NCBI GenBank assembly: GCA_030826885.1
Contig: JAUUDF010000048.1
Location: forward strand, 1 to 64,000
Direction: 5' to 3'
Length of the DNA stretch: 64,000 nt
Source: Sulfurovum sp.
Lineage (GTDB): Bacteria > Campylobacterota > Campylobacteria > Campylobacterales > Sulfurovaceae
Part shown: piece by piece, positions 6,646-42,811 of the stretch
Position numbering within the stretch: position 1 is the first letter of the stretch
Layout of the letters: every line of letters starts with the position of its first letter
Translations under genes and position numbers: made by a program
Notes under the pieces: model-generated
Databases searched by the model: none
Told to the model about the DNA's origin: nothing
The model's input: only the letters and a program-made list of their open reading frames with translations

Positions 6646-6659
6646 ACGAAACTCCTTCT

Positions 6660-7379: not shown

Positions 7380-7410
7380 TCTTTTCTCCTTTGTGATGTG
7401 ATGGATACCG

Positions 7411-11206: not shown

Positions 11207-11699
11207 CTTCTCCCCTTCGATGCGTTTTAATCCATTTTTGTACGATATCCCGTATGGCTTTCAACTCTCCATCCGTTATTTCCGTTTGTTCGCCATAGAG
11301 CAACTGTGCCGTAGATCGGCGCAACGCGTCATCTACTTTTACTTTGGAGTGCGCTTCGACAAAGTCCCACCATGCCTCATTCGACAATCCCGCCGTCTTT
11401 TGCCTTCCGTAAGCAGCGATGGCGACACGTTTTGCCAGCAAAAGCAGCGCAAGGGCACTCTCCTCTCCTGTTGCACCGATACTTGCAAGTTCGGCCAAGG
11501 CGTCCCGACGATACGCCGATTCCCGGTACGCTTTATAACGCACAACCGCTACATGAAAAAGCCATGCCGCAAGCAACGATACAACAATGTACCATCCCGG
11601 AGCGGGTGGAAAAAATCCTATGGCATCAGGAACGATGATATCGTGCAGACGATCCAGTGACGCTTGTGCAACGGTTTCGTTCATCTCGCTTTGTGTCAT
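11199..11699 (-). CDS. DUF4381-like membrane protein of MoxR/Bat operon
   Basis: IIVPDAIGFFPPAPGWYIVVSLLAAWLF..YRRDALAEL pattern; position between DUF58 and BatA genes. Confidence 0.75.
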   Translation of the reverse strand: MTQSEMNETVAQASLDRLHDIIVPDAIGFFPPAPGWYIVVSLLAAWLFHVAVVRYKAYRESAYRRDALAELASIGATGEESALALLLLAKRVAIAAYGRQKTAGLSNEAWWDFVEAHSKVKVDDALRRSTAQLLYGEQTEITDGELKAIRDIVQKWIKTHRRGEDV

Positions 11700-13599: not shown

Positions 13600-13637
13600 G
13601 TATATTTCCTTAGAGATAGTATATAGTCTTGTAACGA

Positions 13638-14441: not shown

Positions 14442-14444
14442 CAG

Positions 14445-15419
14445 TTACCTTTTTAATTCAAATGGATAAATCACTTTCCAGTCATTTTTCATATCGACAA
14501 TCGTCCAGTTATGCGTTTTGGCATAATCCAGACCTTTATCAAGCTTTCCGATATGGGACTTTCTGTCATATGCCCACTCTCTTTTTTCATCGGTATGATG
14601 TACATACATTTGCAATGTTTTGTACTGTTTGTTCGCCTCTGTGTACTCCATCATTTCAAAGTCACCGTCGGAATTTCCAAAAGCCGCTACGGGCCGTTTG
14701 CCTATGTGATAGTGAATACCCACAGGTTTGCCCGCTTTATCGTCAATAAAACGGATTTTGAGCTCTCTGACGATCTTCTTGTCCTCATATTTTACGGCGA
14801 CTTGTGAACCGATGATCTGCCAAGAGGGCATTCCGTACGATTCTGACGCGAACGGCCGCATGAAATCTATGCCCCCTCCAGAGACAATGAATGTCTGAAA
14901 TCCGTTTGCACGAAGGTATGCAAGCAGTTCAAGCATCGGCTGATAGACCAGTTCGGTGTAGCGTACTTTTTTCGTAGGATGTTTGGCATGCTTGATCCAA
15001 TCAAGCACAATCGCATCGAACTCTTCGTCACTCATACCCGCATGCGTCGCCATAACAAGCTGCATAAGTCCTTTTTTTCCACTGGCAAGTACGGTTTTCA
15101 TATCGTTCTCAAGCACCGCTTTAAAAGGCTGTGTCGTTTTCCATTCCGGATGTTTTGGTGCAAGCGCCTTCACTCTATCGATCACAAAAAGTAGTTGAAA
15201 ATAGACAGGCTTCTCAGACCACAACGTACCGTCGTTGTCAAATACGGCAATACGGTCCTCTTCGGGGATGAAGTCGGGACTGTGCGTATCTGTCACATCC
15301 TTGACATAACTGATGATGTTTTTCTTTGCCGTACCGTCATTCCAGGAAGGAAGCGGATCCGTACTTGCGGCAAAAAGTGAAAGACTCAACACACAAAGTG
15401 CTACAAACAGCTTTTTCAT
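14445..15419 (-). CDS. Secreted HAD-superfamily phosphatase
   Basis: Signal peptide; AVFDNDGTLWSEKP (motif I), FIVSGGGIDFM (motif II), AFGNSDGDFEMM (motif IV). Confidence 0.8.
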   Translation of the reverse strand: MKKLFVALCVLSLSLFAASTDPLPSWNDGTAKKNIISYVKDVTDTHSPDFIPEEDRIAVFDNDGTLWSEKPVYFQLLFVIDRVKALAPKHPEWKTTQPFKAVLENDMKTVLASGKKGLMQLVMATHAGMSDEEFDAIVLDWIKHAKHPTKKVRYTELVYQPMLELLAYLRANGFQTFIVSGGGIDFMRPFASESYGMPSWQIIGSQVAVKYEDKKIVRELKIRFIDDKAGKPVGIHYHIGKRPVAAFGNSDGDFEMMEYTEANKQYKTLQMYVHHTDEKREWAYDRKSHIGKLDKGLDYAKTHNWTIVDMKNDWKVIYPFELKR

Positions 15420-15428
15420 ATCAACTCC

Positions 15429-16208
15429 TTAAAAATGAAATACAATACCTATTTTGGGACCATACAGATCAAAATCGTTTACAAAATTATCATCACCGAA
15501 TGCATAGTGCATATAGCGATAGGTAAGCAGCACGTCTCCCCAGCCAAATCGGTACCCGGCTCCTACACTTGCCTGAGTTGTCAGGTCGGAATTACCCGTA
15601 CCGATATCAAAATGGTAGGGGAAATACCACTGTGAATCAGTCGTATATTCCCCGCGAACACCCATAACGGCGTCATAATTTGAAATAGAGGGAGAGACAG
15701 AGACCCCTCTCTCATTCAAAGAGAGCGAAATATCCATATCCAGAGAAAAATACCGTGCACCGCCGATTGCATCTACTCTCCATCTGCCGTTATCTGTAAT
15801 ATTGTAACCGCCATATACACCGAACATTGTCGCTGTCAGTTCCTGCTCGGCATTGACATGCATATCGGGAATGGACGGATGGTTCGGCGTACGGATTGTC
15901 GTACTTTGACCAGCTGACATCTTCAGGTAGATAATATCTGCCATAAAGCTGTATTTCTCTTTTCTGAGTTCATAGTTTCCCATGAAAACCATATCCAGAG
16001 AGTCTGCAATGCCTGACTGCCCTTTTTTTTCCGGACGCAGACTATCACCCGGAATAGTGTACTTGATCGTACCATCAAGGCTTGGCAGCCATCCATACAC
16101 GGAAATACTCTGCTTTACCTCACTGCTTTCATCTGCATGCACACCTGTCATAGCCAGTAAAATACCAGCCAATGAGGGTACGATTGATCGTTTAACATCT
16201 TGTAACAT
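15429..16208 (-). CDS. Outer-membrane beta-barrel protein
   Basis: Signal peptide with aromatic C-terminus YGPKIGIVFHF; alternating strand pattern. Confidence 0.55.
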   Translation of the reverse strand: MLQDVKRSIVPSLAGILLAMTGVHADESSEVKQSISVYGWLPSLDGTIKYTIPGDSLRPEKKGQSGIADSLDMVFMGNYELRKEKYSFMADIIYLKMSAGQSTTIRTPNHPSIPDMHVNAEQELTATMFGVYGGYNITDNGRWRVDAIGGARYFSLDMDISLSLNERGVSVSPSISNYDAVMGVRGEYTTDSQWYFPYHFDIGTGNSDLTTQASVGAGYRFGWGDVLLTYRYMHYAFGDDNFVNDFDLYGPKIGIVFHF

Positions 16209-16222
16209 TCTTATCCTTTGTA

Positions 16223-16999
16223 TTAAAATTTAATATTCACTCCAATGATGGGACCATGCGTCACCGTATCGTAGACAAAATAGTCACGCATACCCTCTGT
16301 TCCCTCTTCATAATCGACCCAGGTCGCTTTATATTTGAAATCAATGTCTATCATACGGTTAACCGAATAGATGAACCCTAAAGAACATGCCGCAGTAAAG
16401 TCTGCTCCACCACCACCGATATCGCCATGTGCTCTCAGCTTCCAATGACTGTCTATTATGTGTGTATAGCGCAAACCGACCATTCCGTCAATCCAGTCTA
16501 CTTTTTTACTTACAGTGCCACTTTTTCCAAACATTGGCATCGTATAGCCGATATCATAGTCATTGTCCCACCATCGTATACCGGCCAGGTACTCCAAATA
16601 GCCGCTCTTTACGGGAACCCTGTAGACACCCATCACCTCAAGAACACCCTGCCTTACTTTTGCCGAGGAAACACGTTCAATAGGATCGATATCATTCGAT
16701 AGATTCATAAATCCGTAATCGATCCACATACCCCAGCCGTTCGTATGATGTGCTTCGGCATGCACCATCGCAGCCATATCAAGGTTATTCAAAATGGTGC
16801 TGAAATCTACATTGAGACTTGTAGTGGGAAGCCTGCCGAACTTCGCATTACCGTCTATGTTGGTCAACATAAGATACGGTTCTATTTCAAATGACCAATT
16901 GCCTGTGGCAGAGTCCATCTCTTTGGATAGATCGTTATCCATACCTCCACCTGCAAAAAGAAATGATGAAAGCAAGACAGAGTATAGTATTTTTTTCAT
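16223..16999 (-). CDS. Outer-membrane beta-barrel protein
   Basis: Signal peptide MKKILYSVLLSSFLFAGG; C-terminus HGPIIGVNIKF; resembles the preceding barrel in pattern. Confidence 0.55.
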   Translation of the reverse strand: MKKILYSVLLSSFLFAGGGMDNDLSKEMDSATGNWSFEIEPYLMLTNIDGNAKFGRLPTTSLNVDFSTILNNLDMAAMVHAEAHHTNGWGMWIDYGFMNLSNDIDPIERVSSAKVRQGVLEVMGVYRVPVKSGYLEYLAGIRWWDNDYDIGYTMPMFGKSGTVSKKVDWIDGMVGLRYTHIIDSHWKLRAHGDIGGGGADFTAACSLGFIYSVNRMIDIDFKYKATWVDYEEGTEGMRDYFVYDTVTHGPIIGVNIKF

Positions 17000-17103
17000 C
17001 CCCAACCTTTATTGAATATACAAAAATATACCATCATCGAGGAATATTTTTGTATACACTTAAATTGCCATCGTCCGCAGACGAAGGCAATACCCATCAT
17101 GCT

Positions 17104-18684
17104 TTAGTTTAGCGGAGAGGCATCAAGAAGCTTTTTCAGATTACCTTTTGCCTTTTGCAACTCGATCGTCTGATATCCGATATTCCCCGCAGAAAGTGAA
17201 GAACCGGACTGGAACGGATACTCAGGGATTGTATTAAAGAATTTCTTGACAAAATTCTGGGCCGGAACCATCATCCACATATTGTCCGCATACCATTTGA
17301 GATAGAGTCCTGAACCATCCTGTGCATGTTCGAACGGATCGGCACGAAGGTTGGTAATGACAGGCCATGCCGGTACTTTTCTGTACGCTTCATTAATAGC
17401 TCCCTCTTCCTGTGCAAAGGCAACTTTGAAGTCATCGACACGAATGGCATTGAGCATACCGCTTGCCGCGAAGTAGTAAATCTCTCTTCTTGGACCTTTT
17501 TTCGTTTCACCCTTGAAGTACGGCAGGAAGTTGTAACCGTCAAGATGGACTCTCCATTTTTTGCCGTTGGCTTTGCAGCCCTCTTTGGAAGCGAGTTTCT
17601 CTTTGACATCAGGTACACCAGCTGCTGCAAGCAGTGTCGGCATCCAGTCCTCCTGGGACATGATGTCATTGTAAACAGTACCCGGTTTGATGGTTCCTGG
17701 CCATTTTACCACCTGTGGAATTCTCATGCCGCCTTCCCATGTGGTTCCCTTTTCACCTCTAAATGGTGACGTACCTCCATCGGGCCAGGAGAACTTCTCT
17801 GCACCGTTGTCGGTAGAGAAAATAACAATTGTGTTGTCTTCAACACCCAGTTTCTTGATATGGTCAAGGAAACTTCCAACCATGTCGTCAAGCTCTTTCA
17901 TCGCATCCGGGTAGAGACCGATACCTGTAATACCCTGATATTTTTTCTTCAGGTGCGTCCAAACGTGTGTACGGGTAAAGTTCATCCATACAAAGAAAGG
18001 TTTTCCCGCTTTGACTGAACGTGTCATGAAATCTTTTGCCGCTGCACCGAACTCCCCGTCAACGGTTTCCATTCTTTTTTTTGTCAGTGGACCGGTATCT
18101 TCGATTTTGCCGTCCGCATAAGAGTGAATAACTCCACGAGGACCATATTTTTTCTTAAACTCGGGATCTTTCGGATAGTAGTACGTTTCGGGTTCTTCTT
18201 CTGCATTGAGATGGTAAAGGTTTCCGAAGAACTCATCGAATCCGTGCTTGGTCGGCAGGTGCTTGTCACGGTCACCCAGGTGGTTCTTACCGAACTGTCC
18301 CGTCGCATAGCCTTGATTTTTGAGCAGATCTGCAATTGTCGGCGCCCAGTCAGGAATACCGTGTTCAGAACCTGGCATACCAATAGTCAGCAGTCCCGTT
18401 CTGAAAGGATGTTCACCCAGAATGAAAGATGAACGTCCTGCTGTACATGACTGCTGTGCATACATGTCCGTAAAGAGTGCACCGTCTTTGGCAATGGAAT
18501 CGATGTTGGGTGTTTTGTACCCCATCATGCCCTGATTGTAGGCACTGACATTCCAGTATCCAATGTCATCTCCCCACAGAACCAAAATGTTTGGCTTTTT
18601 TGCTGCAAGCAGCTGCGTAGGTACCGCCATCGCAGCAACACCAAGCCCAACCGCAACCAAGAGTTTCGAAGTGATTTTTTTCAT
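17104..18684 (-). CDS. Periplasmic arylsulfatase (type I sulfatase)
   Basis: Signal peptide; PNILVLWGDDIGYWN metal site; CTAGRSS Cys-type sulfatase motif; FSTDNGAE; TPFRGEKGTTWEGGMRIPQVVKWPG. Confidence 0.9.
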   Translation of the reverse strand: MKKITSKLLVAVGLGVAAMAVPTQLLAAKKPNILVLWGDDIGYWNVSAYNQGMMGYKTPNIDSIAKDGALFTDMYAQQSCTAGRSSFILGEHPFRTGLLTIGMPGSEHGIPDWAPTIADLLKNQGYATGQFGKNHLGDRDKHLPTKHGFDEFFGNLYHLNAEEEPETYYYPKDPEFKKKYGPRGVIHSYADGKIEDTGPLTKKRMETVDGEFGAAAKDFMTRSVKAGKPFFVWMNFTRTHVWTHLKKKYQGITGIGLYPDAMKELDDMVGSFLDHIKKLGVEDNTIVIFSTDNGAEKFSWPDGGTSPFRGEKGTTWEGGMRIPQVVKWPGTIKPGTVYNDIMSQEDWMPTLLAAAGVPDVKEKLASKEGCKANGKKWRVHLDGYNFLPYFKGETKKGPRREIYYFAASGMLNAIRVDDFKVAFAQEEGAINEAYRKVPAWPVITNLRADPFEHAQDGSGLYLKWYADNMWMMVPAQNFVKKFFNTIPEYPFQSGSSLSAGNIGYQTIELQKAKGNLKKLLDASPLN

Positions 18685-23302: not shown

Positions 23303-24442
23303 TTGTCACAGGCAACACTGATACTTTTGGGAGCAGGAAGCTCCTCCCGGTTTGAAACTTCGGTAAAGAAGCAGTGGCTCTACAGCGGAGATATACCATT
23401 ATGGCTGCAGGTCGCACAGCACTTTGAACAAACCGGCTATTTTGACAACATCATTGTGGTCTCTTCTTCCGAAGAGATACACCATATGAAACACTTTGCA
23501 GACTATACCTTTGTAACAGGCGGTGCAAGCAGACAGGAGTCACTCAATAATGCGCTTCAAATAGTGACAACCGAGTATGTCATGGTCAGCGATATTGCCC
23601 GATGCTGCGTTCCTGCAGAGATGATCAAACGCATTCTTGATGCCAGAGAAAAAGCGGCATGCATTGTCCCTGTTCTCCCTGTAAACGATACACTCTATAT
23701 GGATGGCAGTCCCATCGATAGAGAGCAGGTCAAGATCATCCAGACACCGCAGCTCAGTCACACACCAACACTTAAAAAGGCACTCTCGACGAAGACACTC
23801 TTTACTGATGAGAGTTCTGCCATTGCCGCACTGGGACACAAAGTTATATTTGTCGAAGGCTCCCCGCTTGCACACAAACTCACACGCATTGATGACCTGG
23901 ATAAACTCCCCTGCATCAACGAACCCTCCTTACAAACCCTAACAGGATTTGGCATCGACATACACCCTTTTGAAGAGGGAAAACCGATGAAACTCTGCGG
24001 TGTCACCATCGATGTCGATTACGGTTTCAAAGCACACAGTGACGGTGATGTCGCCATTCATGCACTCATCGATGCCTTGCTGGGCGCCGCCGGCATGGGT
24101 GACATAGGAGAGCTCTATCCAGATACCGAAGCAACCTATGCAGGTGCCAATTCGGCCAAATTGCTTGAAGATACCCTCAGACGCATCCGGGCTTTCGGTC
24201 TGGAGGTCGGTAATATCGACATGACCATCCTTGCACAGGCTCCCAAACTTCTGCCCTACAAAGAGCAGATGCGCAACAGGCTTGCTTCACTACTTGAGAT
24301 CCCTTCGCACAGAGTCAACATCAAAGCCACCACTGCCGAAAAACTCGGCTTTGTCGGACGAAAAGAGGGGGTCACGGTGCATGCTGTAGCGACCCTGAAT
24401 TACTTTAACTGGAAAAAATCACTCAATGGAAAACTATCATGA
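23303..24442 (+). CDS. ispDF: Bifunctional IspD/IspF (MEP pathway)
   Basis: IspD half (LLGAGSSSRF), IspF half (GFGIDIHPFEEGKPMKLCGV, HSDGDVAIHALIDALLGA, TTAEKLGFVGRKEGV). Start may be TTG. Confidence 0.93.
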   Translation: MSQATLILLGAGSSSRFETSVKKQWLYSGDIPLWLQVAQHFEQTGYFDNIIVVSSSEEIHHMKHFADYTFVTGGASRQESLNNALQIVTTEYVMVSDIARCCVPAEMIKRILDAREKAACIVPVLPVNDTLYMDGSPIDREQVKIIQTPQLSHTPTLKKALSTKTLFTDESSAIAALGHKVIFVEGSPLAHKLTRIDDLDKLPCINEPSLQTLTGFGIDIHPFEEGKPMKLCGVTIDVDYGFKAHSDGDVAIHALIDALLGAAGMGDIGELYPDTEATYAGANSAKLLEDTLRRIRAFGLEVGNIDMTILAQAPKLLPYKEQMRNRLASLLEIPSHRVNIKATTAEKLGFVGRKEGVTVHAVATLNYFNWKKSLNGKLS

Positions 24443-25320
24443 AAATCATCATTGTAGAAAATGAACTCTATCTAGCACAAAGTATTGCTGCCAAACTTAC
24501 AGAGAACGGATTTGAAACGGAGATTTACAGCTCTATTAAAGAAGCGATGCAGAGCAACGGTGACGTCTATCTGATCTCAACCAACCTGCCGGGACAAAAT
24601 GTTGCACCGCTCATTACCCAGTTCAGTGACAAGATCATCATTTTGATGGTCAGCTACATCAACAACGACACAGTAGGGGAACCTCTTAAACTCGGCGCAA
24701 AAGACTATATTGTCAAGCCATTCATGATCGAAGAGCTTCTACGGAAGATCGAGCACTATCAGGAGTATCAGGATCTCAAAAAACACACCAGACTCTACCA
24801 GGAGTACATGGAAAACCTCCTGCAGGAGATAGAGACCGATTTCGACATCGATACTCTCAGCACACCACTGGTCATTCAGACAAACTATCAGAGACTCGTC
24901 GACAAGATCGTCTTCGAATACGCCCATAAAAAAGACAGGCTCATGACCTTTATCCCTCTGGGACATCCGGAGTGGAAAAGCAAACTCGAAAAGAGTTCAA
25001 GCAAATCACTTCTCTATATTACCGAGATACACACACTCAAAAAAACAGACCGAGAGTACCTGCTTGATGCCATTAAAACACGTGATTTCATTCTATGTAC
25101 CACCGGAGAATTCGAGTCACCCTATGAGACAATCACACTTAATACAGACTCCAAACTCTATGACCAGAACGAGATCCTTACCATCGACGACTATGTCAAA
25201 TTCATTGTCAACTCTTTCCAGTACAAATTCCCCGATACGGAACTGAGCAAAAAACTCGGCATCTCACGTAAAAGTCTCTGGGAAAAACGGAAGAAGTACG
25301 GTCTTTTCAAGAAGAAATAG
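24439..25320 (+). CDS. Response regulator with C-terminal Fis-type HTH
   Basis: REC domain (IIVENELYLAQSIAAKL...LGAKDYIVKPFMIEEL) and HTH (ELSKKLGISRKSLWEKRKKYGL); adjacent to ispDF. Confidence 0.85.
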   Translation: MKIIIVENELYLAQSIAAKLTENGFETEIYSSIKEAMQSNGDVYLISTNLPGQNVAPLITQFSDKIIILMVSYINNDTVGEPLKLGAKDYIVKPFMIEELLRKIEHYQEYQDLKKHTRLYQEYMENLLQEIETDFDIDTLSTPLVIQTNYQRLVDKIVFEYAHKKDRLMTFIPLGHPEWKSKLEKSSSKSLLYITEIHTLKKTDREYLLDAIKTRDFILCTTGEFESPYETITLNTDSKLYDQNEILTIDDYVKFIVNSFQYKFPDTELSKKLGISRKSLWEKRKKYGLFKKK

Positions 25321-25335: not shown

Positions 25336-26517
25336 ATGTCTACACATAAAACACTCTACATCGATACCGAGGCACTCTCCACCCTTGCACTGGTACAGGC
25401 AGGGCTCATTGCTCCCGTAACTGGCCTCATGAATGAATCTGAGGCAAGAGAGGTCGACCGGACACAAATGTACAAAGGGGTTCCTTTTCCTTTTGCATTT
25501 GTCCTTGCTCCCAAAGGTGAGAAAAACAGAAAAGTGCTTGAATCTCTCCAAAAAGGAGAAACGGTCTATCTGCTCAACGAAGACAAAAAAGTGGGTGAAC
25601 TGACTGTGGAAGAGACATTTCACATCGACCCGAAACAGCGTCTGTATAATATATACGGCACCTCCGATCCTTCCCACCCTGGTGTCAAAAATACCATATC
25701 CAGGCTGGGAGAAATAGCCGTTTCTGGTCCCTATAGGGTCGAATATCCGCTCATCGAAGACAACATCAACCGTATAAACCAGATGATCACCCGTACCGGC
25801 GCAAAATTCGTCACCTCCATGATGATCGCTGCCAATCCGCTCAACCGTGCCCATGAACGAATGATCAGACAGGCGATCAGCGATGCCGATCTGCTGGTCA
25901 TTTTCCTTCGAAAACCTTTCACCAACGAAGGACTGCGATACGACATCCGCTACAATGCGCTCAACCGTTTCATTGACAACTTCATTCCGCGAAACAAAGT
26001 CATTATCATTCCGTTTGAGAATACTTACATCTTCGCGGGCTACAATGAACTCATTCTCGATGCACTTCTAGCGAAGAACTACGGATGTCATCAGCTTGTC
26101 GTCGGCAAGAACCATGGCGGTCTGGGGCTCTACTATGACCAGAACCGTCTCAACTCCGTCTTCGACCATTGCAAAGATATTGACATTCACATCAAAACAG
26201 TCGATGAATATGTCTACTGCGATACCTGTAAAACGCTTGTGAGTACCCAAACCTGCCCACATGGACAGCATCACCATGTCCACTACCACAGCGAGTCGAT
26301 CATGAAGCTGATCCAGAGCGGTCTCATGCCGCCGCCAATTCTGGTACGCAAAGAGGTTTCGGCGAGCATTCTCGCCTCACTCTTTCCCGACCGTTTCGAG
26401 AACCTGCAGCAGATGCACTACTCTCTGATGCCCGGTTCCGGACTGCTTGAGCAGCAGAGCGAGGAGCAGTTCTACCTCAAACTCGTCGAACTCTATCAAA
26501 CCTCATCACTGACATAG
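25336..26517 (+). CDS. sat: Sulfate adenylyltransferase
   Basis: ATP-sulfurylase pattern (QMITRTGAKFVTSMMIAANPLNRAHERMIRQA; LVVGKNHGGLGLYY; CDTCKTLVSTQTCPH). Confidence 0.85.
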   Translation: MSTHKTLYIDTEALSTLALVQAGLIAPVTGLMNESEAREVDRTQMYKGVPFPFAFVLAPKGEKNRKVLESLQKGETVYLLNEDKKVGELTVEETFHIDPKQRLYNIYGTSDPSHPGVKNTISRLGEIAVSGPYRVEYPLIEDNINRINQMITRTGAKFVTSMMIAANPLNRAHERMIRQAISDADLLVIFLRKPFTNEGLRYDIRYNALNRFIDNFIPRNKVIIIPFENTYIFAGYNELILDALLAKNYGCHQLVVGKNHGGLGLYYDQNRLNSVFDHCKDIDIHIKTVDEYVYCDTCKTLVSTQTCPHGQHHHVHYHSESIMKLIQSGLMPPPILVRKEVSASILASLFPDRFENLQQMHYSLMPGSGLLEQQSEEQFYLKLVELYQTSSLT

Positions 26518-31570: not shown

Positions 31571-32056
31571 TTACACATCTGCCTCTTCTTCAAAACCGCC
31601 TTCGGGAAAATACTCATCGAGAATGACCGGGAAAAGTGCGATCGTTTTTCGTGCTTTTTCAATTTTCGGCGCAAATACCACTTCGCTTGCCGGAAAATCC
31701 CGCATCAGTTCATCATAAATGGCAATTTTCTCTTCCATGTGATTTTTCAGTGCATCAAGCACTGCCGACATCGTCTCCCTGCTTGTCGCATACTTCATCA
31801 GCATTTCGAACATGCGCTTTCTCGGATGGATCGCCATTGACTCACCCGCTTCCATAGCAATATCCTTTATATCCCATCGGGAAACATAAATACCGCTGAC
31901 ATGCGGTGCCACCAGTTTGGCATAAAGCGCCTCCGTATAGGAAGGATAGTCCTTCAGGTCTGCAGCTTCGTCACTCGAGCAGGCTCCATCTACGCACGCT
32001 TCTTCGTTAATGGTAAAATTCTCGAACTCTTTTCTTAGTGCATCCATATCTCTCAT
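31571..32056 (-). CDS. Conserved-looking hypothetical protein in molybdoenzyme locus
   Basis: 161-aa ORF co-directional and tightly spaced with 32060..32542. Confidence 0.55.
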   Translation of the reverse strand: MRDMDALRKEFENFTINEEACVDGACSSDEAADLKDYPSYTEALYAKLVAPHVSGIYVSRWDIKDIAMEAGESMAIHPRKRMFEMLMKYATSRETMSAVLDALKNHMEEKIAIYDELMRDFPASEVVFAPKIEKARKTIALFPVILDEYFPEGGFEEEADV

Positions 32057-32059
32057 ATG

Positions 32060-32542
32060 CTACTCCTTGTTATTTTCTGCGATCAGATGCGGTATGGCAT
32101 CTACGTCAATATCGGCACCAAACCACCGGTTGGCAATCAGCATCATTTTGGTAACGAAAAGTATCTGGTCATCCAGAAACTCCGGCTTCTCAAAAAGGGC
32201 TTTGGCATCGTCATCGAAACAGAAACCGTGTACTTTGCCCGCTTCAATCTCCACAAAATCTATACGCCCTTCTCTTCTGGCTGTTTCGTCAAGCGTGTCA
32301 CAATACGCCAGAGCCTTTTGTGCGAACTCCCGTTCAACCATCATCTTGTCGACCTTCGACTGCCCCACACTGCTCATGGTGAACTCAAAGTGCTCATCGG
32401 AAATATTTAGCGCAATCGCTGTTGCGTTGATGCCCTGTGCTTTGAGTATTTTGTTAAAGTAACGTCTTGTATAACCTGTCTGGGCATTGTATCCAAGAAT
32501 CGTACAGAGTCGGGTATCGGGTTTTATCTCATGTGGTTTCAT
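32060..32542 (-). CDS. Hypothetical protein, weak AroE substrate-domain-like N-terminus
   Basis: DTRLCTILGYNAQTGYTRRYFNKILKAQGINATAIALNISDEHFEFTM resembles the start of the shikimate dehydrogenase fold; no NADP domain. Confidence 0.5.
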   Translation of the reverse strand: MKPHEIKPDTRLCTILGYNAQTGYTRRYFNKILKAQGINATAIALNISDEHFEFTMSSVGQSKVDKMMVEREFAQKALAYCDTLDETARREGRIDFVEIEAGKVHGFCFDDDAKALFEKPEFLDDQILFVTKMMLIANRWFGADIDVDAIPHLIAENNKE

Positions 32543-32641
32543 CTATTCTTTCTCCTTTCTGCAAAGCAGAGCTTCGCAGAAATTCCTCTCACTAAAGCTT
32601 CGCCTGTCGGCTCAGAAAAATCCCAACAAAGGCTTTTCTTT

Positions 32642-33754
32642 TCACGCTTCATTGCTGCTTCCCATTTTTTTGGCGTTTTCATGCAAGAACATCGCTTCTT
32701 CTTCTTCGACTATGCATCGGGGACACATTGTGGCGCCTTCAAAAGAGGTAAAGTAGTTTCCGCATTCGTCACAGCGTCTGACATTGAACGTTGCCAGGGT
32801 ACGCTGCGTCGGCTCAAAAAACTCTTTGACTTCAAATCCCGGCTGCAGCTGTATAGCATCGGGTTCACAGACATCATGGCAGAGACGGCACTTTACACAC
32901 AGCATTGCATCGAAATGAATCAGCGAGAACTTGCTGTCACTGCTGAGTGCCCCTGTAGGACAAATACGGTAGCATATCTGACAGTTGGTACAGCTCTCTT
33001 CTACAAATTTTTGCGAGACAAAACTGACATCCTCTTCTGCGAGTACTTCATAACGCTCCGGCTTTGGAGTATGCTTGAGCATGGTGAAAAGGATCTTGCG
33101 TTTATCGGGCAGGTGTTTATCTCTGATCTTCTGGGTGATGGACGGGTCTATTTCAAAGTGATGCATCTCATCTGCTTCGACCGCCTGTTCAAACTCCTGT
33201 TTGTGCTTCATCACACCTTTTAGTGAAGCGGTATTACGCAAAAATGCCCGTCTGTCCGCCGCAGCTTCTTCCTCTTCTTCGGATGATGCTTCTGCAACAG
33301 GCTGTGTATTGACTTCAAGCTGCTTCGAAGAGATGCTTGAAAGTACGAAGTTCGCCTCCTCAATGCGTGATACGATCACCCCATACAGATGACTCTGTGG
33401 ATCATAGTCATCCAAATCGAGCACTACCGGCTCCTCACTTGCAAGCGCAAGAGAGATAAGATGTTCAACACTCAACACGGAAAGACATGGAATATTGAGT
33501 TTTCTCGAAATCAGGCGTACCTTGCTGTCAAGGAAACTGAAGAAAAACTCCGTTACGGAAAAATCGCTCAAAGCAAAGGCTTCCGTCGGGCAGGCACCGA
33601 CACAGGCGGCACCTTCTACGCCAAGCCCTTTGGCAAAAACCGGCAGCTGTTCGTCAATACGCACCAGTGAGTTCGTTGCTTCAACACACTTGGTACATTC
33701 GGAAAACTTGCTTGTCGCCCTGATACACAGGGCTGTATCGAAATGGAGTCTCAT
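32642..33754 (-). CDS. 4Fe-4S ferredoxin-type protein with C-terminal zinc-ribbon-like segment
   Basis: CTNCQICYRICPTGAL and CVKCRLCHDVCEPDAI clusters; C-terminal CDECGNYF...MCPRC. Confidence 0.85.
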   Translation of the reverse strand: MRLHFDTALCIRATSKFSECTKCVEATNSLVRIDEQLPVFAKGLGVEGAACVGACPTEAFALSDFSVTEFFFSFLDSKVRLISRKLNIPCLSVLSVEHLISLALASEEPVVLDLDDYDPQSHLYGVIVSRIEEANFVLSSISSKQLEVNTQPVAEASSEEEEEAAADRRAFLRNTASLKGVMKHKQEFEQAVEADEMHHFEIDPSITQKIRDKHLPDKRKILFTMLKHTPKPERYEVLAEEDVSFVSQKFVEESCTNCQICYRICPTGALSSDSKFSLIHFDAMLCVKCRLCHDVCEPDAIQLQPGFEVKEFFEPTQRTLATFNVRRCDECGNYFTSFEGATMCPRCIVEEEEAMFLHENAKKMGSSNEA

Positions 33755-33757
33755 GGT

Positions 33758-34435
33758 TTAGGCAACATCCGCACAGAAGCTGTCAAGCTGTGCGTTGATA
33801 TACTCAAAGTCACTCAGCAAAAACTCCAGTGTCAACTCGCTTCCCTCATGGTAAAGCGGCGTTCTGGACTCTTTTTTCGCATTGATGAGAAACATCGGTG
33901 CCCACTCAAGCAGGTGGTCTCGCATAAAGCCTTTTTGAATCTGAAACAGTTCGCAGATTCCCTCTTTGTCACCTGCCTCAAGCGCTTTAAGCTGTGCCTT
34001 GCAGAGCATATACATGAATTCCAATTCCACACCGATATGGTCACCGCTGACCACCCTTGCCTTTTCAAGCTCTACCCTGAAATCAAGCGCATCGTAGAGT
34101 TCAATGACAGGGTTGCCTTTACCGCTGTCGATCATCTGGTCATCACGGACATAAAAACTCTCGTAGGGAACAAGATGCATCAAAAAGAGGTTGGCGAAAT
34201 CGACATTGTAATACGCCTCTATCAACTCTTTCATGCTCTTGTCATTGCGCTTCGACCAGTTTTGATAGTTGGGAAAGAGTGCGTATATCGCTTCATCACT
34301 TTCGATCGTTTTCAAAAAATCCTCATCGACTTCCTTGATCATCAAACGTGAGATCAGAGCATAAAGTGCAATGCGGTTTTCAAGATCCTGTTTTAGCGTT
34401 TCCATCATATCCCTTATGGTGTAAATTTTTGGCAA
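33758..34435 (-). CDS. TorD/DmsD-family molybdoenzyme maturation chaperone
   Basis: All-helical ~225 aa with PYESFYVRDDQ-type motif; directly downstream of the molybdoenzyme catalytic gene. Confidence 0.8.
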   Translation of the reverse strand: MPKIYTIRDMMETLKQDLENRIALYALISRLMIKEVDEDFLKTIESDEAIYALFPNYQNWSKRNDKSMKELIEAYYNVDFANLFLMHLVPYESFYVRDDQMIDSGKGNPVIELYDALDFRVELEKARVVSGDHIGVELEFMYMLCKAQLKALEAGDKEGICELFQIQKGFMRDHLLEWAPMFLINAKKESRTPLYHEGSELTLEFLLSDFEYINAQLDSFCADVA

Positions 34436-34534
34436 CTATACCACTTTCAAGATAAATAGCACGAATAAGAAAAATATTTATCTGGAAAATAGTGTCGGAT
34501 GAAGGCGGGCAGCAGGCTGCTGCCCAAATGAACA

Positions 34535-37500
34535 CTACCCTGTAATATCTACAGAGTATGCTTTGAGTGTCAGAGGTACTGCCGGACGCTTCATGTGTAC
34601 CGGACGTCTGAGCTTGTCACCTTTGGCAAGCGGTCTTGTCAGCTTGTCTCTCCAGGCCTGATAGACTTTGAAGTTATTCTCATAGTTGACATAGATATCA
34701 CCAATGACATCATCCGGACCGGCTTTTTCGATGCGAACTTTCTGATGCCATGCATGGTTACCCGCAATCGGGTCAGGATGTGACGGAGCAACGGCATTCT
34801 GCCATGCACCGCTCAGACCATCCCACCAGATATTGTCGAGGTCTTTGTTGTACTCTTTGAACTGCCAGGTATCTTTACGTGCCTGCATACCTTCATTGAG
34901 CCCCTGCTTAGGCTTGAGCGTACCGATCTTGCCATCCATTGTCATGTCGTAGAGTGGAGCACCGAGACCCAGAACACCCAGTTTGTGCTCGAAGCCTGGA
35001 ATCTCGACAGCATTTTTCAGCTTCCAACGACCGGCATGGTGTGAACATGCAAGTACGCCAGGCATTGTCGCTTCTGTCGGTACAGCCATCGCGATAAAGT
35101 AACCCGACTCGAGACCTGAAACAGTATCTTCAATGGTTACCTTGATCGCATCTCCACGCTTGATTCCCAGACGCTTGGCATCTGCAGTAGAGATCCATAC
35201 AGGGTTGTGGTTCTGTGAAATCTCCATCAGGTGCTTGGAGTTCACTGAACGGGTATGAATGTTGTACGGCAGTCTAAATACCGTATTGAGTGCGAACTCG
35301 TTCTTGGACGGGTCAATAAAGTCATGGTGTACCTGAGTAACCAGCTGTACCATCTCTTTACGCTCTTTCGCGTTTCTCGGATAGATAGGAATAGCGAATT
35401 CAGGCCATTTCCACTCAGCAAACCATTTGGAGTAGAACTCAAGTTTACCGCTGAGTGTATGGAAGCCTTGTACGATCTTGCCGTCTACTTCCACACCGAT
35501 AGGCTTTTTCCCGCCAAATACATGGTCATGGACAAGCAGTGTGCCGTATTCATCTTTTTCGACTTCACTCTCATCATACTCGTGACCGTGGGCGATGTAT
35601 TTGTTCCCCTCTTTGCGGAGTGGTCTCTCCTGTGGTCTGTATACATGATCCTCTTCAAGCCAGGTACCCATATCTCTCATCATCTCGTAGTTCGGATACT
35701 TCGAATTCGGGTACTTCAGTTTCGCTGTCTTTCTGAGGTTAGGAAGCTTGTCGAATGCTGCCTGATACCACTCCGGAATGGTTACCGCACGGCTTGGATC
35801 CTCTTTGGATGCCCAGAATTTTCTGACACCGAGGCTTCCGTCAGGGTCAACATAGTGAACCATGATGTTCGCCCAGAACTCTACCTCTTCCCAGATTTCG
35901 CCAAGTCCAGCCGTCATATGTGCTTCGAGTGTCGCACGTGCCGGATCTTTCGGTTTCCAGCCAAGTTTTTCAAGTGCGACACGCAGTGCAGGGTTTTTGA
36001 AACTCAGCCATCTTGCCGGTTTTGTAGGCTCGGAAGACTGGTCGTGTCTTTCACCCGCCAGACCGACAGGAAGAACATAGTCACAGAACCAGTTGGTTTC
36101 AGACCAGGTTGGTGACAGGTTGAATGAGAGTTCGATCTTGTCTTCACGCTTCAGTGCTTCGATCCATCTGAATCCGTCCGGGTTGATCCATACAGGGTTG
36201 TACATACGCGGAATCCAGACAGCCAGCTTCTCAGGAATGTGCTTCAGACCTTTTGCTTTCCACTTCGCTCTCCACTCATCATCGAGCAGGAGGTGTGGCA
36301 TGATGTGTGACATCTCGTAGGTACTGAGCGGATACTCAGGCGGCCATGCAATCTCGTTCCATACATCGACTCTTGGCGGTCTTTCGCCTGCAACTGTAGC
36401 CGCATCCCCTTTACCGTTAACAGAGATGACATGCCAGTGGTGCATACCTACACCACCGATGTTTCCGGCCATTGCACCACGCAGTGCCAGAGGGAAGAAA
36501 CCGGAACGGGTATTCATCCATCCCCCTCTGTGACCGATAGTTCCGGCTCTCCAGAGGAATGTGGAAATTCTGTCACCGGCATCGATGAACATATCAAAGA
36601 GTTCGTCAAGTTTGTGACCGTAACCTTCCATTTTACACTCTTTGACAACAAACTCTTTGGTGTATGGCGAATAGATCTCTTTGAGCATCTCGATGAAACT
36701 TTCATAACTCTCATCCTGAGGTACCTGTTTCATGTAGCCTTTGGAGACCATCAGCGCAAGCTGCTCTTTGTCTTTCATCAACTGTTCCCAGTTGACCCAG
36801 TTCTTAAAGAACGCGTGGTTTACCAGGTCTTTCCCGTGAATATCTTTTTCATTCAAAATTCTGTTGGCAAGGTGCAGATAAAGCGCTGCTTCCGTACCCG
36901 GCCATACAGGAATCCAAAGATCCGCCATACCCGCAGAGTTGGACATACGAGGGTCCATAACGACCAGTTTCGCTCCCTTTTTTCTTGCATCGGCAATATA
37001 GCCTGCAGACTGCTGGAAGTAGTGACCTGCATCCGCAGCGTGAGAAGACTGGAGGAAGATCAGTTTCGCATTCGCCCAATCCGGAGAGTTTCTGTCATCG
37101 TTCACCCACTGGATGGTACCTTCACGTGCACCTGCAGAACAGATGTTGGTATGTGAGTCGTATCCGTCAAGTCCCATAGAGTGCGGAACACGGTGACCGA
37201 AACCGTTCTCGTTCGGACGACCAACATGGTACATGATCATCTTTTTGGAGACTTCATCGCCTCTTTTGAGCGTATCGTGCATCTTTTTACCGATGGTCGC
37301 CATCGCTTCGTCCCATGTGGTTCTTACCCACTTGCCTTCACCCCTTTTGGAACCCGGTGCTCTTTTAAGCGGGAAAGGAATTCTGTCCGGATCGTACATC
37401 TGTGTCTGGGTAGCATACCCTTTTGCACAGTTACGTCCGCGTGAACCGGCATGCAGCGGGTTACCCATGTATTTTTTGACGAAAAGGTCTCTTGGGTTTT

Positions 37501-37891
37501 TCGTTCTCTTATACTCACCGATCTCGACCCATGCAGTCAGACCACACTGTGCTTCACAGTTGGAGCAGACTGTCGGAACAAGCATAAACTCGTTGACTTT
37601 GATCCCGTCAGGGTTGTTTTCGCTTGCAACACCCTTTCTTCCTACACCTCCACGTTTCCAGTCATCACCATCAAGCTCTTTGAAACTGTCCCACTGCTCA
37701 AGCGGTGGATAGAATGAAAGGCTCTTTGGTGTGGCAGTGAAGGTCTTCTCTTCAGCCTCTGCAGGCGTCTCGACGATTGTCTCGAATACACCTGCCGCCA
37801 GTGTCACTCCGGCAACAGAGTAAGCGGTTCCCTTAAGGAAGCTTCTTCTACTCTCTATAAAATGGTTGTCTTGATTCATTGATTTTGTCAT
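34535..37891 (-). CDS. CISM molybdopterin oxidoreductase catalytic subunit, Tat-exported, substrate unassigned
   Basis: Tat motif SRRSFLKGTAYSVAGVTLAAG; CSNCEAQCG...GRNCAKG 4Fe-4S motif; HTNICSAGARE around the predicted Mo-ligand Cys; KLIFLQSSHAADAG; C-terminal pterin-binding region. Confidence 0.9.
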   Translation of the reverse strand: MTKSMNQDNHFIESRRSFLKGTAYSVAGVTLAAGVFETIVETPAEAEEKTFTATPKSLSFYPPLEQWDSFKELDGDDWKRGGVGRKGVASENNPDGIKVNEFMLVPTVCSNCEAQCGLTAWVEIGEYKRTKNPRDLFVKKYMGNPLHAGSRGRNCAKGYATQTQMYDPDRIPFPLKRAPGSKRGEGKWVRTTWDEAMATIGKKMHDTLKRGDEVSKKMIMYHVGRPNENGFGHRVPHSMGLDGYDSHTNICSAGAREGTIQWVNDDRNSPDWANAKLIFLQSSHAADAGHYFQQSAGYIADARKKGAKLVVMDPRMSNSAGMADLWIPVWPGTEAALYLHLANRILNEKDIHGKDLVNHAFFKNWVNWEQLMKDKEQLALMVSKGYMKQVPQDESYESFIEMLKEIYSPYTKEFVVKECKMEGYGHKLDELFDMFIDAGDRISTFLWRAGTIGHRGGWMNTRSGFFPLALRGAMAGNIGGVGMHHWHVISVNGKGDAATVAGERPPRVDVWNEIAWPPEYPLSTYEMSHIMPHLLLDDEWRAKWKAKGLKHIPEKLAVWIPRMYNPVWINPDGFRWIEALKREDKIELSFNLSPTWSETNWFCDYVLPVGLAGERHDQSSEPTKPARWLSFKNPALRVALEKLGWKPKDPARATLEAHMTAGLGEIWEEVEFWANIMVHYVDPDGSLGVRKFWASKEDPSRAVTIPEWYQAAFDKLPNLRKTAKLKYPNSKYPNYEMMRDMGTWLEEDHVYRPQERPLRKEGNKYIAHGHEYDESEVEKDEYGTLLVHDHVFGGKKPIGVEVDGKIVQGFHTLSGKLEFYSKWFAEWKWPEFAIPIYPRNAKERKEMVQLVTQVHHDFIDPSKNEFALNTVFRLPYNIHTRSVNSKHLMEISQNHNPVWISTADAKRLGIKRGDAIKVTIEDTVSGLESGYFIAMAVPTEATMPGVLACSHHAGRWKLKNAVEIPGFEHKLGVLGLGAPLYDMTMDGKIGTLKPKQGLNEGMQARKDTWQFKEYNKDLDNIWWDGLSGAWQNAVAPSHPDPIAGNHAWHQKVRIEKAGPDDVIGDIYVNYENNFKVYQAWRDKLTRPLAKGDKLRRPVHMKRPAVPLTLKAYSVDITG

Positions 37892-37903
37892 AGATACTCC
37901 TCC

Positions 37904-38851
37904 TTAACTCAACGGTAGCATTTGTGGGATTTTAAGCCATACATCTTTTGCCATGTACAGTCCGATCAATGCCAACAGTGCCGCAAATCTCAGCAGCGTT
38001 TTATTATCACTCTTCATGCTGCTTACAGCAAGGAAGAAAGGTACGATAAATCCAAGTACCATACCGAACCAGAACTCAGTGTTGTACTCACCGCCTGCAT
38101 GCACATATGCCAGTGTCGCTTCCGCCTCAGCTGACTTGAATGAGAAGAAATACTCACCCATATACATCAGGAAGCTAAACAGCGTAGAGATCGCCAATAC
38201 AAGCGCGAGATCACGTCTTGCTTCCGTACTCCATTTGCCTGATACGAAGATCAGTCCCGCAGAACCGGCCAGAAGTGCCGCCCAGATCATCTGCATAACC
38301 TCAGCTGGAGTCTGCCACAGTTCTCTTGCACTGGACTCCGCCATGATGATGGCTGTATACATTGTAACAGGGAATGCGAGGAATACAACGAACGGGAAAA
38401 GTTTTTCATAGAGCCCGCTGTTTGCTCTTGCCGCATTTGCCAATGCACAGTTCTTTCTGATATTCGGATGCGCATCAAAGAAGCCGATGACAAGTAGAAT
38501 GGTTACCAGTGCCGTAAAGAGTGACGCCATCCAAGCCCCTACCGTAATGGCAGATGTCCAATGCGGATGGAGGAAAATATTGACCATTCTGTACGGCTGA
38601 TGAAGATCCGTCAGCGTAAAGAGCAAAAAGATATTCAAAAATACGAATGAGATCAGCGGCATGGTCCATCTGAGATTAGGCATTTCATCTTTCTTGTGTC
38701 TGTAAAGCAAAAAGGCACCGACAATAATAACGCCTGTACCGACCGATTTAGCCCACATGTTAAGTGTAATCATCCAGCCCCAGATAATACCCGGAAGCGC
38801 GACGTCCAACGTTACAACAGCTTGTGTTGCGTGAATTCCATGTTCTACCAT
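37904..38851 (-). CDS. NrfD/PsrC-type membrane subunit
   Basis: About 8 TM helices; adjacent to FeS and molybdoenzyme subunits. Confidence 0.85.
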   Translation of the reverse strand: MVEHGIHATQAVVTLDVALPGIIWGWMITLNMWAKSVGTGVIIVGAFLLYRHKKDEMPNLRWTMPLISFVFLNIFLLFTLTDLHQPYRMVNIFLHPHWTSAITVGAWMASLFTALVTILLVIGFFDAHPNIRKNCALANAARANSGLYEKLFPFVVFLAFPVTMYTAIIMAESSARELWQTPAEVMQMIWAALLAGSAGLIFVSGKWSTEARRDLALVLAISTLFSFLMYMGEYFFSFKSAEAEATLAYVHAGGEYNTEFWFGMVLGFIVPFFLAVSSMKSDNKTLLRFAALLALIGLYMAKDVWLKIPQMLPLS

Positions 38852-39609
38852 TAGTAACCTCCCTCTTCTTCATGAGACTCATGCGCATTATTGTCAAAGT
38901 CCACGAAACTTTTATTATCAAGATGTTCATGTGAAGTGAACGGTGCAAGGAATCTGTCGATGACACCATGGTGAGGATCACCAACATGCTCCAGGTGTGT
39001 GATATTGTTAAAGAGGTTGTAGCCCTCAAGTCTCTGCTGTGCCAGAGGATCGAGTGTCTGTGTACCGCCACCTACATAATAGTGTTTAGGTTCAGTATTT
39101 TTCTCAGGTTTACGTACCTGTACTGCACCCTGATGCTCCATAATATACTGTGAAATATGACTTGTATCATCTTCTACATCACCGAAGATGTTTGCCTGAA
39201 CCGGACAGACAACCACACACGCAGGCATCATACCGCTTTCAATACGGTGTGCACAATAGGTACATTTGTCAGCGGTATTGGTCTCCGGATCCATATAGAT
39301 CGCACCGTAAGGACACGCCATCATACATCCGGCACATCCGATACAGCGTGCGCTGTCAACATTGACGATCCCGTTTTCAAGATAGTGCAGTGCCGATACT
39401 GGACATATTCGCTCACACGGTGCACTTTCACAATGGTTACAGCGAAGCGGAGTAAACGATCTTGATGTATCGGGGAATGTCCCGATATCGATATATTTTA
39501 CACGCAGACGCCAAGAGCCGAGTGGCACTTCGTTTTCCACTTTACAAGCCACTTCACAACCCTTACAACCCATACACAGGTTGAGGTCAACCAAGAAACC
39601 TAGTTTCAT
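38851..39609 (-). CDS. 4Fe-4S electron-transfer subunit (PsrB/DmsB type)
   Basis: CMGCKGCEVAC, CNHCESAPCERICP, CIGCAGCMMACPYGA, CTYCAHRIE...PACVVVCP: four-cluster subunit pattern. Confidence 0.92.
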   Translation of the reverse strand: MKLGFLVDLNLCMGCKGCEVACKVENEVPLGSWRLRVKYIDIGTFPDTSRSFTPLRCNHCESAPCERICPVSALHYLENGIVNVDSARCIGCAGCMMACPYGAIYMDPETNTADKCTYCAHRIESGMMPACVVVCPVQANIFGDVEDDTSHISQYIMEHQGAVQVRKPEKNTEPKHYYVGGGTQTLDPLAQQRLEGYNLFNNITHLEHVGDPHHGVIDRFLAPFTSHEHLDNKSFVDFDNNAHESHEEEGGY

Positions 39610-39841: not shown

Positions 39842-40891
39842 TTATGATTTTTTATCGTCAGAATGGCAGGAAAGTCGGAAAGAAAAGGTTGAGCCTTCAT
39901 GGAGTTTGCTCTCTATGTGCAGTTGACTTCCGTGTAACTTTAAAATGGTCTTGACAATAGAGAGCCCCAGTCCCATGGAGTTATCCCAGCTGTGTGTACC
40001 CGAACGGTAGAACTTTTTGGTCACTTTCTGAATATCCTCTTCGCTAATGCCTACACCGTGGTCACGTACCGAAACACCACAGTCGCTGGTGACCGTAACA
40101 TGAATATCCTCTTTGGAATATTTCAGGGCATTTTCCATGAGGTTCTTCAGTACAACCTCTACTAAAGTTCTGTCGGCGTAAACCATGTACGTTTGTCCGT
40201 CAAGAAGAATCTGTCTGTTTTTGTACTTCTCTTCAAGTGAACGTTTCACTTCCTGTGCCAATGCATAGAGATCGAAACTGCTCTGGTGGAGGGTGGCCTG
40301 TCCGCTTTCGAATTTGTTCCAGAGGATCAAACGTCCAAGCAGCATCTCGATTTTGTTACCGTTATTGTAAATTTTTTCAAGAAACTTGTTTCTAAGTACA
40401 GGAGGGATATCCGGTTCTTCATGCAGGGTCTGCGAATAGCCCATGATTGAGGCGATAGGATTGCGAAGCTCATGGGCAATAGCAGAGATCATGTCGGCCC
40501 GCTGTCTGTTTTTGAGTTTGAGTTTGGCATTGTAACGCTGTTTGATGTTGTCACGCTTCTTTGCTTTCTTCAATGCTTTGAGAAGATTGTGGTTCATCTC
40601 TTCGAACTCTTTGGTCCAAAAATGTTTGGAAACCTCAGCGTCATCAAGGTTGTCTGGGTTTTTCAAATAGCCGTTTAGCGTATTCAATGCCTTTTGTATC
40701 TTTTTGCTGCCACGCCATATGACAAGCATAAAAAGAAACAGGCTCGCTATAACCCAGACAGAAACCATCATAATTTCCCTTCTGTCAAAACCGATCATGT
40801 ACATCGTCATAAAAAACAAAGAGAGAATAAGCACGGCAGCAGTAGCAAGCCGCACTATGATGTATTTTGTAAAATGTACTTTTGAGGACAT
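39842..40891 (-). CDS. Sensor histidine kinase without adjacent response regulator
   Basis: Two TM helices; ISAIAHELRNPIASIMGYSQTL H-box; LKNLMENALKYS N-box; VRDHGVGISEEDI; GLGLSIVKTI. Confidence 0.9.
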   Translation of the reverse strand: MSSKVHFTKYIIVRLATAAVLILSLFFMTMYMIGFDRREIMMVSVWVIASLFLFMLVIWRGSKKIQKALNTLNGYLKNPDNLDDAEVSKHFWTKEFEEMNHNLLKALKKAKKRDNIKQRYNAKLKLKNRQRADMISAIAHELRNPIASIMGYSQTLHEEPDIPPVLRNKFLEKIYNNGNKIEMLLGRLILWNKFESGQATLHQSSFDLYALAQEVKRSLEEKYKNRQILLDGQTYMVYADRTLVEVVLKNLMENALKYSKEDIHVTVTSDCGVSVRDHGVGISEEDIQKVTKKFYRSGTHSWDNSMGLGLSIVKTILKLHGSQLHIESKLHEGSTFSFRLSCHSDDKKS

Positions 40892-42065: not shown

Positions 42066-42422
42066 TCAACGCTCTATCTCTCCGCTATAGGTAACAATAC
42101 CGCCATAGTGGTTGATTGCATTTTCAAAACCGTTGGAAGCGAAAACGTGTCTTACCTGCGCACTTCTGCTGCCTGTTCTACACGTAAATATAACCGGCTT
42201 TTTGTCTTTGTATTCGTTAAAAAGTGTCTCGGCCCACTCCTGAAAAGTGGACGTAGGTTTTAGCATATCGACACCTTTGATATGTCCGGCATCATACTCC
42301 ATCTGCTCACGTACATCCACAAGCAGGAAGTCCGCCTCGCCGTTGGCTCTGGCGTCAAGCAGTGTCTGAAGATCACTTGATGTAATATCCGGTTTAGTCA
42401 ATAATTCGTGCATAATTGTCAC
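42066..42422 (-). CDS. Rhodanese-like sulfurtransferase
   Basis: LLVDVREQMEYDAGHIKGV and active-site-like VIFTCRTGSRSAQV. Confidence 0.88.
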   Translation of the reverse strand: MTIMHELLTKPDITSSDLQTLLDARANGEADFLLVDVREQMEYDAGHIKGVDMLKPTSTFQEWAETLFNEYKDKKPVIFTCRTGSRSAQVRHVFASNGFENAINHYGGIVTYSGEIER

Positions 42423-42466
42423 CTCGCTATAGAAAATAGTCGCGTATTATACCCAAATTATTTTGC

Positions 42467-42811
42467 TTAACTGTTCTCTTTGACAAATTCCGGTGTACAG
42501 AAGATACCGCAGTGGCATTTGCCCTCTTCAGGGATTTCTTTTTCAAGTGCAGGCGGACAGGGGCATACACGGTCATCGACACTTTTGTACTTTCCTGGTT
42601 TGTTCGGATCTTCCTCTACCATGAAACAGGGGCAGAAACGTTTGCCGTAAAGCAGTTTGTTACGTGCCAGCCCCATAATGACCCCTTCATTGACCTCTTC
42701 ATTGGGATGGTACTCAAACCCAAACTGCGCACACACTTTGTCCGTAAATTTTTTGGTCTTTTCCAGCTCTTCGTGAAATTCGGGAGAACTCATATCAAGT
42801 TGTTGCATCAT
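42467..42811 (-). CDS. Ferredoxin-thioredoxin reductase catalytic-chain-like protein
   Basis: GKRFCPCF..., RVCPCPPAL, GKCHCGIFC cysteine pattern typical of FTRc. Confidence 0.85.
   Translation of the reverse strand: MMQQLDMSSPEFHEELEKTKKFTDKVCAQFGFEYHPNEEVNEGVIMGLARNKLLYGKRFCPCFMVEEDPNKPGKYKSVDDRVCPCPPALEKEIPEEGKCHCGIFCTPEFVKENS

Follow-up and report, generated by a model that had tools for sequence, protein, structure and literature searches.

A single-copy molybdoenzyme cassette of Sulfurovum, named psrA1B1C1, as a candidate periplasmic inorganic-sulfur:menaquinone oxidoreductase

On what substrate, and in which direction, does a molybdoenzyme work that nearly every Sulfurovum genome carries under the name of a polysulfide reductase? 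The question is raised by a 64,000-nucleotide stretch of Sulfurovum sp. DNA (assembly GCA_030826885.1, contig JAUUDF010000048.1, positions 1 to 64,000; hereafter the window), in which one cassette (31571..39609) encodes a complex iron-sulfur molybdoenzyme (CISM) whose catalytic, electron-transfer and membrane subunits are here called A, B and C. At vents, seeps and redoxclines, Sulfurovum and Sulfurimonas rank among the main fixers of carbon; both the way in which their Sox chemistry meets the menaquinone pool and the way in which sulfur is disproportionated in them are open questions (PMC9948710, PMC12998232). Though widespread and strongly expressed, the cassette has been classed, from weak similarity, as a polysulfide reductase of the cytoplasm. 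In the present work, we find that A appears to form a clade of its own and that its substrate is probably an inorganic sulfur compound, with the case for oxidation as the working direction about evenly balanced; the reading which we tentatively prefer is that A-B-C may be a periplasmic inorganic-sulfur:menaquinone oxidoreductase, taking electrons from sulfite or from carrier-bound sulfane.

Seven genes make up the cassette, all read from the minus strand in the order B-C-A-TorD-fd370-p160-p161, with intergenic gaps of at most 99 bases. B (38851..39609) is an electron-transfer subunit without a signal peptide, its Fer4 domains holding 16 cysteines in four [4Fe-4S] motifs; its top-scoring models are TtrB and ArrB, and it falls under both cut-offs (195 of 416 bits for TtrB). 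C (37904..38851) is an NrfD/PsrC-type membrane anchor of 315 residues (PF03916, 58.9 bits against a cut-off of 25.8), with about 8-10 hydrophobic segments by hydropathy. A (34535..37891), of 1118 residues, holds the three molybdopterin oxidoreductase domains PF04879, PF00384 and PF01568; its N-terminus, MTKSMNQDNHFIESRRSFLKG, contains a clear twin-arginine translocation (Tat) motif (ESRRSFLKG), from which export is predicted, and it carries an iron-sulfur (FeS) motif, FeS0, that reads C109-x2-C112-x3-C116...C155. Cys251 of A, in SHTNIC, aligns with the molybdenum-binding cysteine of Thermus thermophilus PsrA and is the predicted Mo ligand. A TorD-family chaperone for A (33758..34435, with a TTG start as called) scores 57.9 bits with PF02613 and 59 bits, below cut-off, with the TorD model. 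The features that define the CISM superfamily are all found here: a molybdenum-bis(pyranopterin guanine dinucleotide) subunit with N-terminal FeS cluster, a four-cluster FeS subunit and an NrfD anchor. An earlier note on this DNA had described B, C, A, TorD and a ferredoxin, and all five were borne out, closely spaced on the minus strand, including the four clusters of B, the anchor type of C and the length, Tat-type export and cysteine ligand of A; p160 and p161, which lie within the interval that it delimited, it left undescribed.

The family to which A belongs is not one of those with a trusted model. A reaches no NCBIfam cut-off: DmsA scores best (127 of 778 bits), followed by PhsA (115 of 694), ArrA (62 of 1600) and TtrA (60 of 1750). 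Among plasmid records, full-length homologues with 35-38% identity over most of A occur in Thermomicrobium roseum, on pRHL3 of Rhodococcus jostii RHA1 and in several haloarchaea, and the closest relatives of B outside the phylum are the fused BC proteins of Thermomicrobium, Rhodococcus and haloarchaea (45-55% identity). In two maximum-likelihood trees the A proteins of Campylobacterota and these Tat-less homologues form a 100/100 clade, beside which stand an Azoarcus protein and an 849-residue protein of Sulfurovum indicum ST-419, then ArrA/ArxA and TtrA. The PsrA/PhsA sequences lie apart, T. thermophilus PsrA and the ST-419 proteins PsrA3 and PsrA4 among them, and the genuine TtrA proteins of Campylobacterales, at ~960 bits, have a 100/100 clade to themselves. 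In approximately unbiased (AU) tests, a grouping of the A family with PsrA/PhsA was rejected with the Azoarcus and 849-residue rows outside it (p=0.003) and borderline with them inside (p=0.049), a grouping with ArrA/ArxA was weakly rejected (p=0.041), and a sister grouping with TtrA was not rejected (p=0.19). The constraint kept the whole family together throughout; one joining the Campylobacterota rows alone to PsrA/PhsA was dropped as unfair, as it breaks the clade shared with homologues from outside. The ST-419 protein PsrA2, which is reported to group with Aquifex SreA (PMC10045233) and served here as a proxy for SoeA and bacterial SreA, falls with NapA, far from A; a Pseudohalocynthiibacter H50 protein considered as a SoeA row turned out not to be SoeA. 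A would thus seem to be a clade of its own with no characterised member, in line with the earlier note, which could not place it in a characterised clade, and this holds for the references used, a set without SoeA proper, SrrA and SrdA. The 849-residue protein (L150, G016:C1:1452733-1453983) is itself a Tat-type molybdoenzyme outside the characterised clades.

A further difference concerns the predicted pocket, which was compared through residue alignments. At R225 of A, ArrA/ArxA also show a GR motif, T. thermophilus PsrA has GH, and an Arg is absent from TtrA. An AlphaFold model built for A, with a predicted local distance difference test (pLDDT) score of 69, is too weak for pocket or docking claims; its likeness to ArrA and to PsrA is about equal, and the best Foldseek matches are to ArrA (6cz7).

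The enzyme itself is not an unnoticed one, since the cassette A-B-C is the psrA1B1C1 of S. indicum ST-419, reported in all Sulfurovum, assigned to polysulfide reduction and said to resemble the sulfur-respiration PsrABC of strain NBC37-1 (PMC10045233). In the same paper four ST-419 genes bear the name 'psrA', and the cysteines of their products stand at 171, 247, 183 and 195. Our genome G016 matches all four positions in its proteins of 787, 1123 (the A family), 806 and 823 residues, six published locus tags map linearly onto its coordinates (r=0.9997), and the A family corresponds to IMZ28_RS08440, which is psrA1. The order in which the cysteines are listed in PMC10045233 would make the A family PsrA2 instead; we favour psrA1 because of the locus-tag order, the presence of the C gene and the clade described. 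Two published details disagree with ours: the Cys-257 given for NBC37-1 is at odds with the 251 found here, and the statement that no PsrA carries a Tat motif, like the cytoplasmic location given to the psrA1 enzyme, is at odds with the motif visible in the ST-419 psrA1 product (ESRRTFLKG) and in the proteins taken as PsrA3 and PsrA4. The label 'polysulfide reductase' is unsupported by clade, model scores and pocket residues, and not refuted by function.

How widely the cassette is kept bears on what it may do. A is found at full length with 69-96% identity in dozens of Sulfurovum genomes, while A proteins of several further families in the order reach 56-74%; the Tat motif [RK]RxF[L]K is retained in 84 of 86 full-length A open frames, the remaining two reading RRSFLR or running across an assembly gap. 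Such identity and retention exclude a chance occurrence. Of 397 evenly sampled Campylobacteria genomes, 85 are carriers, with one match each and all within six families; a single copy of the cassette is found in nearly all Sulfurovum and in many Sulfurimonas-type genomes and relatives. The order B-C-A-TorD-fd370-(p160)-p161 is retained down to ~53% identity of A, and, where enough sequence lies downstream of A, TorD and p161 are each found in 34/42 loci. Insertions between A and TorD (L057, L095) are regulators or tetratricopeptide-repeat proteins and give no clue to the substrate, and an apparent C-A fusion (L092) proved to be a scaffold gap. In one subgroup of family f16 (L168 = G358, and other genomes) the match of A to the family profile ends at about position 961, the C-terminal 150 residues being different. 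In Sulfurovum mangrovi (L161, NZ_CP087125.1) the cassette is carried by a linear 'plasmid' of 395 kb along with ordinary housekeeping genes (gatC, dapE, ispDF), perhaps a mislabelled piece of chromosome.

That the substrate is probably inorganic sulfur follows from this taxonomic range together with two independent sulfur neighbourhoods. The first is in genome G024, which we take to be Sulfurovum sp. NBC37-1, where soxX-soxY-soxZ-soxA-soxB, a porin-like gene, a soxH-like metallo-beta-lactamase-fold (MBL) gene, two thioredoxin-cytochromes, DsrE and DUF302 precede B-C-A in one direction; whole or in part, the array recurs at L032, L034, L036, L055/L163, L090 and L165. In the last of these (G051:C1:1761000-1780900, 2365-14013) a 3,883-bp unit of thioredoxin-cytochromes, DsrE and DUF302 stands three times in tandem between soxH and B, the units being 100% and 97.5% identical with chimeric soxH/B frames at the joints, either a recent amplification or an assembly artefact. 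The second neighbourhood belongs to the Tat-less branch: the R. jostii locus adjoins DsrE, TusA, MBL-fold hydrolases and Mrp, and those of Natrinema caseinilyticum and Halomicrococcus adjoin rhodanese and TauE; near the Thermomicrobium and N. halophilum loci no sulfur genes were found. The hosts of this branch are aerobic heterotrophs, in which a sulfur-respiring reductase is unlikely. Oxidation is favoured by these aerobic hosts, by the sox/DsrE array and by the absence of A from the Sulfurospirillum-like family f20, which is rich in TtrA, has ArrA and canonical PsrA-type proteins and has no carrier in the sample; Arg225, shared with ArrA/ArxA, we count on the same side. So too the co-occurrence of A with SoxZ within Campylobacteria, SoxZ being present in 69 of the 85 carriers and 49 of the 312 non-carriers, counts that are uncorrected for phylogeny; the Sox-positive non-carriers are mainly from families f8 and f20 and the Sulfurovaceae genera g32 and g33. 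A further point in favour is that enzymes of the SoxC/SorA fold are missing from the Sox-positive carriers G077 and G141 and present in all five Sox-positive non-carriers tested, from families f1 and f8 (G100, G142, G178, G067, G085); they are missing as well from the carriers G063, G098, G093, G097 and G080. That sulfite in particular is the substrate we hold to be doubtful.

Several observations weigh against an oxidative role. Linkage to sox is found in a minority: NBC37-1 and G051 show it, as do 4 of the 57 loci that extend far enough upstream, many other Sulfurovum having a histidine kinase 5' of the cassette instead (21/57). SoxZ is absent from 16 of the 85 carriers. The complete genomes G063 and G098 carry the cassette with neither SoxZ nor any SoxC/SorA-type enzyme. 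Enzymes of the SoxC/SorA type are retained in NBC37-1 and others as well, and the function of A would therefore be partly redundant there. Expression, lastly, is strong during growth by reduction of elemental sulfur (S0), at 2,504-17,874 fragments per kilobase per million (FPKM) and 1.2-2.1 fold up, a change that is not significant (PMC10045233), so that psrA1B1C1 does not stand out as an oxidation gene.

Some of these points lend weight to the closest rival, in which A-B-C would have the PsrABC function and pass electrons from menaquinol to polysulfide or elemental sulfur in the periplasm. The S0 expression, the Sox-less complete carriers and the want of a canonical PsrA in NBC37-1 all favour it: none of the six PF00384 proteins of that genome is a canonical 800-residue PsrA, so that, if sulfur is respired, A-B-C or a Tat-less PsrA2-like protein must serve. 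Beyond the published name and its likening to the NBC37-1 enzyme, Psr activity in epsilonproteobacteria is mentioned, with citation of Yamamoto 2010, in PMC4674564. Against these stand the position of A outside the PsrA/PhsA clade, its score far under the PhsA cut-off, its Arg in place of the His of T. thermophilus PsrA, the nearest relatives being Tat-less and in aerobes, and the Sulfurospirillum-like family, which has canonical PsrA-type proteins and lacks A; in ST-419, moreover, the psr genes significantly induced by S0 are the canonical psrA3B3C3 (PMC10045233). On balance we place oxidation slightly ahead of polysulfide reduction, which we regard as possible though the less probable of the two.

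A divergent TtrABC, acting on tetrathionate or thiosulfate, is improbable: the best model for B is TtrB, A is long, as is TtrA (about 1,010 residues), and the TtrA grouping survives the AU test, but the TtrA score of A is low, the genuine TtrA of Campylobacterales, like ArrA found elsewhere in the order and mostly in f20, forms its own clade and lacks the Arg, and TtrA was not found in the window's genome. Least probable of all is a metalloid oxyanion (arsenic, selenium) or another non-sulfur substrate, for which the tree position near ArrA/ArxA, the GR motif and an exported Azoarcus relative (B-C-A-TorD with an fd370-like ferredoxin, adjoined by ars genes) might speak, against the ArrA score and AU result, the near-universal presence of A in Sulfurovum and neighbourhoods that, in the Campylobacterota cassettes read, hold sox/DsrE and no ars.

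Under the preferred oxidative reading, the AB catalytic part would be folded with TorD, and probably also with fd370, p160 and p161. We infer that it is then exported by Tat and docked periplasmically on C, which would exchange electrons with menaquinone. Sulfite, or sulfane sulfur on SoxYZ/DsrE-type carriers, would give up electrons at Mo in A, and these, in the order established for CISM enzymes, would pass through FeS0 and the four clusters of B (five FeS clusters in all) to menaquinone at C. The enzyme would work beside Sox, SoeABC-like but periplasmic and of another lineage, and, if this is true, would couple the Sox system of Campylobacterota directly to the menaquinone pool. Still more tentatively, the periplasmic Campylobacterota branch and the Tat-less branch of aerobic actinobacteria, Thermomicrobia and haloarchaea may together be a separate CISM family in which sulfite or carrier-bound sulfane is oxidised with quinone as acceptor. 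The new respiratory or oxidative activity that the earlier note had proposed is possible. Correct naming would alter those metabolic reconstructions in which every 'psrABC' is counted as sulfur respiration, and the cassette gives a defined target for knock-out.

Of the accessory genes, fd370 (32642..33754, minus strand) encodes a cytoplasmic multi-FeS protein of 370 residues with a C-terminal CxxC...CxxC. A general housekeeping ferredoxin is ruled out by its single copy in its own genome and by a homologue, alike along its length, at the Azoarcus locus; because neither TorD nor fd370 is annotated next to the Tat-less relatives, it is probably a maturation factor for the exported form and not part of catalysis. 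p160 (32060..32542, minus strand) is a truncated, orphan AroE-like N-terminal domain (PF08501, 24.3 bits, below the cut-off of 27), the substrate-domain half of such a protein; distant relatives have a two-domain form of 280-285 residues in this position (L137, 2124-2978; L139, 10396-11235), a shikimate-dehydrogenase relative travelling with a molybdoenzyme. p161 (31571..32056, minus strand) is a small conserved protein without known family, with a conserved Cys26 in a CxDGxC-like motif and a GIYxSRWDxK motif; its AlphaFold model (pLDDT 82) is all helical, a fold search gave no PDB match, no homology to the small Azoarcus protein was found, and among plasmid records it occurs only in S. mangrovi. 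Upstream of B lies the sensor histidine kinase (39842..40891, minus strand), a possible regulator of the cassette, and beyond it and dapE a rhodanese with a ferredoxin-thioredoxin reductase catalytic chain (42066-42811, minus strand), kept in many Sulfurovum loci. About 5 kb past the other end, ATP sulfurylase (PF01747), IspDF and a response regulator are encoded (25336-26517, plus strand, with 23303-25320), a group that also adjoins the cassette in S. mangrovi and in family f18 (L142/L166).

Set beside known systems, A-B-C shares with PsrABC/PhsABC, as far as sequence tells, a Tat-exported Cys-ligated Mo subunit, a B with four [4Fe-4S] clusters and an NrfD anchor (as in PsrABC), and differs in clade, in the length of A (1118 against about 760 residues), in Arg225 instead of His, in insertions at about 370-395, 540 and 730-860 and in the extra genes fd370, p160 and p161. 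With SoeABC and bacterial SreABC it has in common the three-subunit plan, the NrfD-type anchor, the Cys ligand and a setting of sulfur oxidation; SoeAB, however, is cytoplasmic (PMC8076601), whereas A has a Tat signal, and the clades were compared through the ST-419 PsrA2 proxy only. TtrABC resembles it in B and in a long A; its TtrA forms a separate clade, whose sister grouping with A was not rejected, and differs in pocket residue, and the TtrA and TtrB cut-offs are missed. ArrAB/ArxAB share the GR motif, the SH-x-x-C ligand loop and the Foldseek matches; A stands in a separate 100/100 clade, scores far under the ArrA cut-off, and has no arsenic genes close by in the cassettes read. The MOLY cluster, a candidate for sulfur disproportionation made up of MolyA, MolyB and a TorD-like MolyC, is defined by the absence of the transmembrane anchor of other CISM enzymes (PMC12998232), whereas this cassette has one. 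Closest are the Tat-less CISM enzymes of Rhodococcus pRHL3, Thermomicrobium and haloarchaea, which share its 100/100 clade, 38-44% identity in the alignment and the motifs VGRP, SHTNxC and SHHxGxW, and which differ in lacking a Tat signal and an annotated TorD or fd370, in the fusion of B with C and, in Rhodococcus and two haloarchaeal loci, in an Mrp/NBP35 gene downstream.

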